40,976 bases of DNA from NCBI GenBank assembly GCA_905371715.1, contig CAJPLV010000009.1, forward strand, positions 1 to 40,976, read 5' to 3'. Numbering within the stretch: the stretch's first letter is position 1; each line of letters opens with the position of its first letter. The notes beneath the pieces were generated by a model that ran no database searches, was not told where the DNA came from, and saw only the letters and a program-made list of their open reading frames with translations. The position numbers and the translations under genes are program-made. The stretch comes from Candidatus Saccharimonadota bacterium (GTDB taxonomy: Bacteria > Patescibacteriota > Saccharimonadia > Saccharimonadales > Saccharimonadaceae). This document shows, in pieces, positions 11,096 through 40,296 of this stretch.

Positions 11096-14032
11096 CTACG
11101 CTGTACGCTTCAAAAATATTTTCAAGTCTCTATTTCCTTCAATTTTCACTTCTTCTTCGTACATATCATCTGATATTGGTCCGAGTTTCAATGTCAACGT
11201 CTCGCCTTCAATAATTCTCGCGTGTTCATCAATAGCTTTGTTCAACTTGTTGTCATTGGACCTTAACCCTAAAATAATATGATCATCGACACTCAAGCCG
11301 GCCTTCTTGCGCGCGCTTTGGACGTGGCGAATAATTTCGCGCGCCAGGCCCTCGCGCTTGAGCTCAGGAGTAATCTCTGTGTCTATTGCAACATTATCGC
11401 CATATAATACACGTTTGACATTCAGTTCCTCCAGCAAAATCGGCGTAAAATCAAATGTCTTACCTTTCTCGGGAACCGTCACGCACGCGAGCGGTTGGCG
11501 TACTTTCACTCCAGCCTTAGCACGCAAGCTCAAACCTTCATTGATGTATTCGCGCACGCGCGCCATTTCATCAATGACTAATTCGTTCACTGTGCCTGCC
11601 GGCAGCCAATCTTTCAAGTGAACCGACTCGTCGTCGCCTGTTAAATTATGATGCAACTCATCCGCTAAAAACGGCGTAAACGGCGCAAGCAAATAGCTTA
11701 ACCGCACCAACACGTAATGGAGCGTTTTATACGCATCGTTCTTATCCGCGTCGTCTTCCGATTTCCAGAAGCGGCGGCGGCTGCGGCGCACATACCAATT
11801 GCTTGCATCGTCTAAGAATGGCAGGATCGGACTAAGCGCGTCCGGAATATTATATCCGTCCATATGCTTTTCGACCACCGCAACCAGCTGATGCAGGCGG
11901 CTGACAATCCAAATATCTAGCGGGTTTGTTAAATCGTTAAGCGGATCCTGTAATGCGCCGTCAAATTCCCAACCATCAACCTCTGCATACATCGTGAAGA
12001 AATCGTACATATTCCAAATCATACTGAGCTTGCGCGCCACGTCGCCAACATCTTTATCGTGCAGCGCAAAATCCTCGCCATTAAGCAGCGGGCTTGATAG
12101 CAGCAAAAAACGCAGACTATCAGCGCTAAACTTATCCATCAGCTCATTCGGGTCAGTAAAGTTACCGTAACTTTTACTCATTTTGCGGCCGTCGTTGCCT
12201 GCCACCACACCAGTCGTCACCACATGCTTAAACGGACTTTCGCCAAACAAACCAACGCTAACGACGTGCATATAATAGAACCATGCCCGCACTTGGCCAA
12301 TATACTCAACCACAAAATCGCCTGGGAAGTTTTCCTCAAACTTCGCTTTGTTCTCAAACGGATAGTGGAACTGTGCAAATGGCATACTGCCCGACTCGAA
12401 CCAGCCATCCAGCACTTTATCAATGCGTATATAATGAACACGCTCGCCCTGATAATCAGCCGGCGGCACATCGCCTTCAGGCGTCAAGTCAAACTCAATC
12501 GCATCAATCCACGGACGGTGATAGTCGTCAAGCTCTGCGCCGCTCAATTCTTTCAACTCTGCATACGAACCGACAACAATTTGCCGCTTATTACCCTGTT
12601 CATCGCGCAGCGTATTACCATCCGCGTCAACCGCTTCCCAAACCGGCATCGCTGTTGCCCAGAAACGATCGCGCGACAAATTCCAATCTGGCGCTTGTTC
12701 AATATTTTTCTCAAACCGCCCATGCTTTAGGTGCTCAGGAAACCACGTAATCTGTTCGGAATTTTTCGCAAGCATCAACTCCTTCTGCCCCTGCACGTCA
12801 TAGAACCAACTCGGGTGCGCCCGATACATCAAGCGCGTGCCGCAGCGATGACAATGCGGATAGCTGTGGCGAATATAGTCGATCTTCCAAACGACGCCGC
12901 GCTCTTTCAGCTCTTTAGCGATGCGCTTATTACTTTCCCAAACATTCTCGCCTTTCCAGTCGCCCTCAGTGAAGAAGCCGTTTTCGTCAATAACGTGCAC
13001 AACGGGAATATTATTAGCTTGAGCAAGATTAAAATCCTCCTCGCCATATGCCGGCGCAATATGGACAATGCCGGTACCATCATCAGCCGACACATATCCA
13101 GCTGAATAAATTTTGTGTGCGTGCTCGCCGCGATTTACGCCCAATAATGGCTTATAGTTCAGGCCAACGAGCGACTCGCCAGAGTACTCAGTAATAATTG
13201 TATACGGCAGCGTCTCATGTTTTTCATTCGTCAATGCTTTATCAAGCAGGTTTTTCGCCAACACAAACCGTTCGCCTTCAACTTCAACCTCAGCATACGT
13301 CAAATCAGCATTCACTGCTAGAGCCGTATTTGCCGATAGCGTCCACGGCGTTGTCGTCCAAACCAACAGCGTTCTCCCGTCCTCCAGTTGAAAGCGCACA
13401 TATACGCTTGGGTCGGTCACATCTTGGTATGCGCCTGCATCCATCGTCACCTCAGCTTTTGACAGCGGCGTCGCATCGCGCGTGCAATACATGAGCACTC
13501 GCTCACCCTCATAAATTTTGCCTTTATTATGCAGCTCTTTAAACGCCCACCAAACACTCTCCATGTATTCTTTGTCCATGGTTTTGTAGGCATTATCCAT
13601 ATCTACCCAGCGACCAATCCGATCAATCGTATCGTTCCACAGACTACTGGTCTGCACCATATTTTCACGCGCAGTCGTGATGTACTTTTCCAGGCTAATC
13701 GTCGTACCGATAGCGCGGCGATCTTTAATGCCTAGCTTCTTCTCAGTAAACACTTCCGCCGGCAATCCATGGCAGTCCCAACCCCACACGCGCTCAACGC
13801 GCTTACCTTTCATAGTCTGATAGCGCGGCACAGCATCTTTGACAATGCTTGAGAGTAATGTACCATGGTGCGGCACGCCAGTGATAAATGGCGGGCCGTC
13901 ATAAAATACATAATGGTTGTCTTCTGAACGCTGTTCGACCGATTTTTCAAATGTTCTGTCGACTTTCCAACGCTTCACCCAATCTTTTTCGTATTCTGCC
14001 GCCCGCCGGCGTGTACCGTGTTTGAATTTCAT
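11096..14032 (-). CDS. ileS: isoleucyl-tRNA synthetase
   Basis: Charges tRNA-Ile and edits valine. 978 residues. The class I signatures are HHGT at 55-58 (HIGH motif) and KMSKSYGNF near 615. The opening FYDGPPFITGVPHHGT and the stretch WGWDCHGLPAEVFTEKKLG are of the eukaryotic-like, type 2 IleRS class often associated with mupirocin tolerance; this subtype call is from memory of the family. The editing (CP1) insertion includes LLVWTTTPWTLSANTAL. AAAGGAG lies 7 nt before the ATG. Upstream is a T-box riboswitch with an isoleucine (AUC) specifier, so expression should rise when tRNA-Ile is uncharged. galU follows. Confidence 0.97.
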   Translation of the reverse strand: MKFKHGTRRRAAEYEKDWVKRWKVDRTFEKSVEQRSEDNHYVFYDGPPFITGVPHHGTLLSSIVKDAVPRYQTMKGKRVERVWGWDCHGLPAEVFTEKKLGIKDRRAIGTTISLEKYITTARENMVQTSSLWNDTIDRIGRWVDMDNAYKTMDKEYMESVWWAFKELHNKGKIYEGERVLMYCTRDATPLSKAEVTMDAGAYQDVTDPSVYVRFQLEDGRTLLVWTTTPWTLSANTALAVNADLTYAEVEVEGERFVLAKNLLDKALTNEKHETLPYTIITEYSGESLVGLNYKPLLGVNRGEHAHKIYSAGYVSADDGTGIVHIAPAYGEEDFNLAQANNIPVVHVIDENGFFTEGDWKGENVWESNKRIAKELKERGVVWKIDYIRHSYPHCHRCGTRLMYRAHPSWFYDVQGQKELMLAKNSEQITWFPEHLKHGRFEKNIEQAPDWNLSRDRFWATAMPVWEAVDADGNTLRDEQGNKRQIVVGSYAELKELSGAELDDYHRPWIDAIEFDLTPEGDVPPADYQGERVHYIRIDKVLDGWFESGSMPFAQFHYPFENKAKFEENFPGDFVVEYIGQVRAWFYYMHVVSVGLFGESPFKHVVTTGVVAGNDGRKMSKSYGNFTDPNELMDKFSADSLRFLLLSSPLLNGEDFALHDKDVGDVARKLSMIWNMYDFFTMYAEVDGWEFDGALQDPLNDLTNPLDIWIVSRLHQLVAVVEKHMDGYNIPDALSPILPFLDDASNWYVRRSRRRFWKSEDDADKNDAYKTLHYVLVRLSYLLAPFTPFLADELHHNLTGDDESVHLKDWLPAGTVNELVIDEMARVREYINEGLSLRAKAGVKVRQPLACVTVPEKGKTFDFTPILLEELNVKRVLYGDNVAIDTEITPELKREGLAREIIRHVQSARKKAGLSVDDHIILGLRSNDNKLNKAIDEHARIIEGETLTLKLGPISDDMYEEEVKIEGNRDLKIFLKRTA

Positions 14033-14050
14033 TCGTATTCTCCTTTCTAC

Positions 14051-14260
14051 AAATAAAAATCACCTCTCTTGACTTCGAGAATCCGCAAGAAGCATGCATG
14101 CGGACGGTACCATCTCGATTCCAAAAGAAGTGATTCTTTCAGCGCTTAATTACTCGTTTACGCCGAGTGAACGCCAGGTTCTACTGAGCTAAAGGCTGTT
14201 CTTCCTGGGGCATTCTCTTGCACGAAGAGATCGCGGGCGATAACCGCTCAGATGCTTCGC
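14051..14260 (-). promoter_or_regulatory. T-box riboswitch (isoleucine) in the ileS leader
   Basis: Read on the minus strand, stem I is a short hairpin (GCGG/CCGC, 14244-14247 with 14233-14236) on a CGAAG/CTTCG base, with a 7-nt loop TTATCGC containing the specifier ATC (14239-14241). Two linker hairpins follow (CCAGG/CCTGG and ACTCG/CGAGT). The antiterminator is complete: helix TCGAGA/TCTCGA (14113-14118 with 14075-14080), the 7-nt bulge TGGTACC (14106-14112) and helix GTCCGCA/TGCGGA. TGGT pairs with an ACCA tRNA tail, and tRNA-Ile(GAT) at 40220-40296 ends in ACCA. An AATCACTTCT/AGAGGTGATT pairing followed by TTTATTT may be the terminator. The specifier in a terminal loop resembles the ultrashort ileS T-boxes of Actinobacteria. 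Confidence 0.85.
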
Positions 14261-14265
14261 CTTTA

Positions 14266-14294
14266 ATTGTACGAGCTTTTTTAGCGAAAAGCAA
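14266..14294 (-). promoter_or_regulatory. promoter of the ileS T-box unit
   Basis: TTGCTT (14289-14294), a 17-nt spacer and TACAAT (14266-14271). The predicted start near 14259 falls at the first base of stem I. The promoter abuts the stop codon of the LiaF-like gene. Confidence 0.7.
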
Positions 14295-40219: not shown

Positions 40220-40296
40220 TGGTGGGCGATGAGGGACTTGAACCTCCGACCTCGTCATTATCAGTGACGCGCTCTAACCAGCTGAGCTAATCGCCC
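40220..40296 (-). tRNA. tRNA-Ile (anticodon GAT)
   Basis: 77 nt with encoded CCA and discriminator A. Acceptor GGGCGAT/ATCGCCC; anticodon stem CGTCA/TGACG with loop CTGATAA; T-loop GTTCAAG. It fits the AUC specifier and the TGGT bulge of the ileS T-box. Confidence 0.97.

Follow-up and report, generated by a model that had tools for sequence, protein, structure and literature searches.

An Ultrashort T-box Ahead of ileS in Saccharibacteria with a Terminator That Probably Opens Stem III

The ileS leader in the window, by which we mean the whole 40,976-nucleotide stretch of DNA analysed here, is a genuine T-box. We consider it likely that this T-box answers to tRNA-Ile and controls ileS by transcription attenuation through a terminator that displaces Stem III, where the steps that involve the tRNA are ones we infer. 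ileS is probably shut off by opening Stem III rather than the part that is used in a textbook T-box.

The ileS leader, its relatives and its aptamer

The leader lies on the minus strand, as do all features given with coordinates below, at about 14266-14040 as read from the window sequence. It precedes an ileS of 978 aa (11096..14032) that has the Pfam domains tRNA-synt_1 and Anticodon_1, is 59-72% identical to the ileS of 80 named loci, and has a Shine-Dalgarno (SD) sequence, AAAGGAG, at 14040..14046. Read 5' to 3', the leader holds Stem I, Stem II, a IIA/B-type pseudoknot, the purine string AAGCG, Stem III, the letters AA and an antiterminator with the bulge UGGUACC; then come the terminator 3' strand that pairs with AAUCACUUCUUUUG, the U run UUUUUAUUU, the SD and ileS. 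The first-pass annotation had placed the elements of an ileS-leader T-box here, and all of them are present, which confirms it. The 23S and 5S rRNA genes also lie inside the window. As for the gene itself, many ileS matches in the family of the nearest genome (e.g. in G043, G013 and G072) are interrupted, near residue 220 or farther on, within a single longer open frame of up to 1573 aa; this suggests sizeable insertions in frame, which may be inteins or additional domains.

ileS was located in 151 genomes of that family, the nearest genome being G001, and upstream DNA was read for 90 loci and the window; one locus, L072, had none. A covariance model, R1, was built from 29 leaders, and those other than the window's come from the family. 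Among the sources of family ileS loci R1 matches 66 of 90, a count that includes its 29 training rows; among named public records it matches 76 of 80 ileS loci, and some of these genomes are also in the family set. The titles of 56 of the 80 records carry Saccharibacteria, Saccharimonas-type names or TM7. Counted by genome, R1 matches 128 of 151 in the family (94 of 105 when only good genomes are taken), which covers 55 of 61 genera; across the phylum it matches 95 of 379, with 22 of those in the family. These sample sets overlap and the E-values of R1 are rough, and because R1 was trained on the enclosing-terminator design its matches favour that design. The idea of an ultrashort ileS T-box of Saccharibacterial origin is supported by the family sources, the named loci and the record titles alike.

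A check of covariance across Saccharibacterial ileS leaders had been proposed, and its outcome is positive. When the window structure is laid on a 66-row alignment, 88.0% of cells are paired, and both-side changes occur at 32 of 35 pairs, in 440 cells altogether; none of 500 shuffles is as high, and slid registers give 35-48%. The alignment is biased towards these helices, because it was fitted to a model that contains most of them. The other proposed check, a scan with Rfam RF00230, turned out differently. This generic T-box model, which is independent of the R1 alignment, gives the window 16.2 bits (E 0.27) and so falls short of its gathering score of 93 bits. At the curated cut-off an Rfam scan reports no T-box in the family genomes (0/101), although E is at or below 0.001 in 32 of the 101; 5 of 14 control genomes match, 2 of them over the cut-off.

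Stem I (14210..14255) is ultrashort. Its letters give an outer helix GCAU/AUGC, a K-turn-like GA/GA and an inner helix GCGG/CCGC, and the inner helix covaries. The tiny stem with ATC in a 7-nt terminal loop that the first-pass annotation described is found at 14247-14233 as the inner hairpin GCGG-UUAUCGC-CCGC, which has 4 bp and a 7-nt end loop with the specifier codon AUC (Ile) at 14239..14241. Of 115 unique matches, 113 were used for the Stem I and AUC counts, and in 112 of these AUC occupies an identical place in the loop; the sole exception, L077, is cut at its 5' end. The loop has 7 nt between standard pairs; in a hand count its two outer letters could pair in 25 of 113 leaders, though not in the window. 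In the 66-row alignment 99.6% of the inner-helix cells are paired, with changes on both sides. A lack of covariation in Stem I had been named beforehand as evidence against a T-box, and this helix came out in the T-box's favour. The outer helix is weakly supported, with -4.3 kcal/mol for cognate arms versus -3.8 for permuted ones and 3 of 5000 permutations as low. Of 113 leaders, 74 have the K-turn-like GA on the 5' side and 93 have it on the 3' side. By eye, an extra hairpin (14230-14214) lies in the outer part of Stem I in the window and in L002. Several relatives (L003, L012 and L035) seemingly have a hairpin inserted in the K-turn-like bulge of Stem I, again by eye; the window's insertion is on the opposite side.

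Stem II (14174..14208) covaries and has an S-turn-like loop, AAGAA/AGUAGAA. Its base has 96.5% of cells paired and both-side changes at 5 of 5 pairs in the 66-row alignment, and its UAGA is invariant in 29 of 29 rows; by analogy these letters would form an S-turn. The IIA/B-type pseudoknot is harder to treat. In the single register tried on the 66-row alignment only 29.4% of IIB cells are paired. Because this register is poor an energy test was used instead, and in 97 unique parsed leaders (5 did not parse) the cognate IIB pairing is better than the permuted one (0/5000). The parse used by this test is wrong for the window, so the window's pseudoknot (14152..14173, CG..CG and ACUCG/CGAGU) was identified by eye.

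The purine string AAGCG (14143..14147) follows the RRRxG motif, which is taken from PMC7583486. Among the 89 leaders kept for the terminator tests described below, RRRxG-Stem III-AA parses in 83 with RAGNG, a form that the parser required, and AA is present in 87. Stem III, CUGAAAGAA-UCAC-UUCUUUUGG at 14121..14142, covaries, and 98.0% of its cells are paired in the 66-row alignment. The antiterminator (14075..14118) is made of A1, UCGAGA/UCUCGA, and A2, GUCCGC/GCGGAU; both covary in the same alignment, with 100% and 91.1% of cells paired. The TGGTACC bulge that had been reported in it is there, at 14112-14106, and UGGUACC is shared by 75 of the 89 leaders; in 8 of the 89 the bulge N is not U. 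This N is C in L035 (genome G102), C in L015 (G018) and A in L017 (G059), and in each case the genome's tRNA-Ile(GAU) matches that of the window at all 77 bases, the discriminator A among them. A G-U pair closes the base of A2 in the window and in 51 of 89 leaders, and this pair is described as the primary steric sensor (PMC7583486). The presumed ligand, tRNA-Ile(GAU), lies at 40220..40296 with discriminator A and an encoded CCA, ending CGCCC-ACCA, so the earlier statement that a tRNA-Ile(GAT) ending in ACCA is in the window was correct.

The first-pass annotation had also claimed a promoter. The claim is weakly supported in the window, where a promoter-like site, TTGCTT-17 nt-TACAAT at 14266..14294, has 8 of 12 consensus letters and a strict promoter scan of the window finds none. 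It fares better among the leaders, 67 of 110 of which have a match of at least 9/12 against a mean of 9.0 in letter shuffles.

Stem III, the terminator and the control of ileS

The terminator 5' arm, AAUCACUUCUUUUG at 14122..14135, consists mostly of the loop and 3' arm of Stem III. The 3' arm, CAAGAGAGGUGAUU, lies at 14058..14071, and the U run, UUUUUAUUU, is read from the sequence at 14051..14059. Both arms are assigned by pairing energies and covariation. In the window the terminator helix encloses the antiterminator, continuing A1 after a small internal loop. The terminator duplex has -20.2 kcal/mol, against -6.3 for the Stem III hairpin and -4.9 for the terminator arm with the A1'/A2' strand; with a 12-nt piece of the Stem III region the terminator arm has -14.9 kcal/mol.

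The terminator tests draw on 142 matches. L196, cut at its 5' end, was left out, and the other 141 gave 115 unique leaders, of which 111 parsed; three had no T run in the slice and one had no motif. L217, L218, L229, L233 and L260 were removed after parsing (L233 and L218 are parser errors, and the T run of L217 and L260 comes only after 69-91 nt), six leaders of the sister genus g12 were set apart, and 89 unique leaders were kept. In these 89 the cognate terminator duplex has -16.5 kcal/mol versus -10.0 for permuted arms, and the Stem III arms have -7.8 versus -5.3 (0/5000 permutations in each case); the permutation controls ignore relatedness among leaders. The Stem III strand is preferred over A1'/A2' by at least 2 kcal/mol in 87 of 89 leaders when 34 nt are compared with 12 nt. 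At like length (12 nt versus 11-12 nt) it is clearly used in 81 of 89 and not clearly in the other 8. L249 looks canonical in the like-length comparison, and the dropped leader L229 leans canonical (-13.7 versus -10.8 kcal/mol).

Counted from A1 in a gap-free register, 86.4% of the terminator cells in the 89 leaders are paired, with 273 both-side changes. Sliding this register by one gives 54% and 61%, and permuting the arms between sequences 1000 times gives a mean of 69% and at most 74%. Stem III in a gap-free register is 90.5% paired in 83 of the 89 leaders, with a parser that chose the best of several starts. A TTTT run, which was a condition of the parse, starts 13-16 nt after A1' in 73 of 89.

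One strand, the loop and 3' strand of Stem III, thus covaries with two partners, the Stem III 5' strand and the terminator 3' arm. Stem III and the terminator cannot coexist because they reuse this same loop and 3' strand. This bears on a puzzle that the first-pass annotation had raised. The enclosure of the antiterminator by the terminator helix had been read correctly. The competitor is Stem III, and both pairings covary, which gives the mechanism a likely form. Two alternative pairings noted by eye in the window, UAAAGGC/GCCUUUA and CUGAGC/GCUCAG, were set aside; among the few relatives inspected they were seen only in L002.

When the 3' part is folded as a growing transcript in 6-nt steps, Stem III is predicted from nt 30 to nt 78, joined by the whole antiterminator at nt 72-78; by nt 84-90 the transcript is in the terminator fold. 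The predicted OFF state has -32.0 kcal/mol versus -20.3 for the ON state. Since OFF is better by 11.7 kcal/mol, the tRNA must act kinetically.

The switch would work as follows. Stem III and the antiterminator would fold first. Uncharged tRNA-Ile would pair with AUC and, through its ACCA, with UGGU, and the bound tRNA would keep Stem III joined to the antiterminator during the passage of the polymerase, so that ileS is read. With charged tRNA-Ile, the emerging terminator 3' arm would pair with the Stem III loop (UCAC) first and would then displace the Stem III 5' strand, so that the terminator forms and transcription stops before ileS. The antiterminator persists in the terminator state, so blocking by the tRNA rests on the published role of Stem III. 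One review makes Stem III and the purine string an indispensable part of the aminoacylation sensor (PMC7583486). Elsewhere the role of Stem III is called unclear, and shortening Stem III in glyQS had only a minor effect, which argues against a large role there (PMC6197855).

Control might instead be translational, as in the actinobacterial ultrashort ileS T-boxes, so that CUUCUUUU of Stem III would pair with the SD AGAAAGGAG when the tRNA is charged. An ultrashort Stem I goes mostly with translational T-boxes (PMC7583486, PMC10651847, PMC10482949), and the pairing with the SD is possible in the window at -7.1 kcal/mol. However, the same Stem III strand pairs with the terminator arm at -20.2 kcal/mol. 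The relatives also speak to this question. In 52 of the 142 matches, L077 and L196 included, the distance to the downstream ileS is 137 nt or more (up to 1071), and the longest ORF between switch and gene is at least 45 aa in 51 of these 52 and at least 150 aa in 29; the ORFs were called from the DNA alone, and at least 8 genomes occur twice in this set, under G handles and as named loci. With an ORF in between in 51 of 52 cases the switch cannot act directly on the ileS SD there, which favours transcriptional control, although the argument is inapplicable to the window, where the switch adjoins ileS. We believe translational control is improbable here. The hint in the first-pass annotation that transcription termination is used instead gains support from the covariation of the terminator and from the intervening ORFs.

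The other explanations seem weaker still. All six leaders of the sister genus g12 have the canonical switch, in which the terminator takes the antiterminator 3' strand. It is very unlikely in the window, where A1'/A2' pairs with the terminator arm at -4.9 kcal/mol and the Stem III region does so at -20.2, or at -14.9 for its 12-nt piece. It could also be argued that the leader is the remnant of a T-box, a constitutive terminator whose hairpin lowers ileS expression after the response to tRNA was lost; an OFF state predicted to be more stable by 11.7 kcal/mol would fit this. We think it quite unlikely: compensatory changes have maintained both alternative helices, the specifier and the bulge are conserved as well, and 55 of 61 genera have the element. 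Chance resemblance might account for the Rfam score of the window alone (16.2 bits, E 0.27), but conservation and covariation exclude it, and its probability is negligible. Attenuation by displacement of Stem III is the reading that we prefer over all of these.

Specifier codons and terminator designs beyond the window

Of the 95 matches from the phylum scan 60 were fetched, and one of these (L126) comes from the family. The downstream ORFs of 58 were compared with NCBIfam, leaving out L160, where the wrong ORF was picked, and L174, which has none. The best match was ileS for 36, valS for 15, an aspS-type family for 2, and other families or nothing for 5. A script picked a hairpin before Stem II at each locus. 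At the ileS loci its loop holds AUC in 27 of 36 and GUC in 0; at the valS loci it holds GUC in 12 of 15, one of which also has AUC. The script took another hairpin in 9 of 36 ileS and 3 of 15 valS loci, and these are counted as misses, though several show AUC or GUC by eye. No clear Asp codon was found in the script-picked Stem I hairpin of L163 or L175, the two loci before aspS-type genes. Taken at the level of sequence, the specifier codon follows the downstream gene in distant relatives, with AUC before ileS and GUC before valS.

The terminator is less constant. A rough classification of the 60 fetched loci gives 27 with an enclosing terminator, 13 with a self hairpin, 7 canonical, 5 that use the A2 5' strand and 8 unparsed. 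The six leaders of genus g12 (L080-L084 and L086) all have a canonical terminator, UUCCAAU/AUUGGAA, drawn from the A1 3' strand. A third design is found in 6 of 11 further family leaders to which Rfam pointed (L269, L270, L271, L275, L280 and, only narrowly, L277), in which the terminator pairs best with the A2 5' strand. The 5' arm of this design is the A2 5' strand plus the loop, such as GCCCGCCC with GGGCGGG. The canonical terminators of g12 and the six leaders on the A2 5' strand argue that the aptamer is kept while the terminator design changes.

Other T-boxes were noticed along the way. Five leaders reached through Rfam matches (L263, L264, L265, L267 and L268) are T-boxes before thrS-like ORFs, named by eye from the protein, with the bulge UGGAACC and Thr-like codons; their 5' part looks different. 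At L262, in a family genome, a T-box lies before a ValRS-like ORF of an archaeal-looking type, also by eye.

Comparison with known T-boxes

TBDB presents T-boxes as belonging to Gram-positive bacteria; its class II model was applied to Actinobacteria and also to class I hits that were truncated (PMC7778990). Patescibacteria are ultra-small bacteria with reduced genomes (PMC11665869). A literature search for T-boxes with Saccharibacteria, Patescibacteria or the candidate phyla radiation found none, with broader matches partly covered, so absence from print is not proven; the part of PMC12452182 that was available mentions neither Saccharibacteria nor Patescibacteria.

On balance we favour the view that Patescibacteria have an overlooked T-box class of their own. 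It would combine an ultrashort Class III-like aptamer with transcription terminators and occur throughout the phylum with Ile and Val codons. The main switch of this class would be strand displacement of Stem III, with a toehold in the loop, around an antiterminator that is still folded, and sister lineages would have been rewired to at least two other terminator designs. A short aptamer that is the mark of mostly translational T-boxes (PMC7583486) drives an apparently transcriptional switch here. The aptamer and the terminator, which were thought to go together, are separated, since related genera differ in which of three strands the terminator attaches to. Because the aptamer is kept while the terminator strand varies, the evolution of expression platforms becomes testable. 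Stem III also gains a possible direct job in the switch.

The closest known aptamer is of Class III, whose definition calls for a short Stem I that displays the specifier in an apical loop of 5 or 6 nt (PMC10482949). Like the Class III ileS T-box of Nocardia farcinica, the window's has a short Stem I that lacks the elbow-binding module, an end-loop specifier, a Stem II and ileS as its target (PMC10482949). A translational ileS T-box has a K-turn, an S-turn and a IIA/B pseudoknot (PMC10651847), and the window's leader has sequences that are K-turn-like, S-turn-like and of IIA/B type. The window's T-box differs from Class III in the 7 nt between standard Stem I pairs, against a loop of 5-6 nt. 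It differs from the N. farcinica example in that the platform ends in a terminator and a U run rather than an SD sequestrator, and in that the host belongs to the Patescibacteria and not the Actinobacteria.

With Class I, the Bacillus subtilis type of RF00230, it shares a presumed sensing of tRNA, an antiterminator with a UGGN bulge, the order purine string-Stem III-AA and a terminator with a U run; unlike Class I, it has no long Stem I. The terminator of known transcriptional T-boxes is built from the A1 and A2 3' strands (PMC7583486), whereas here the terminator 5' arm is a strand of Stem III. The ileS T-boxes of g12 Saccharibacteria have the same kind of aptamer and the same gene and differ in the terminator, which is canonical and uses the A1 3' strand. 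The T-box described here is not categorically new, because its sensor logic and its target are those of known T-boxes. What is new is the combination of a Class III-like aptamer with a terminator that displaces Stem III, together with its spread in the Patescibacteria.
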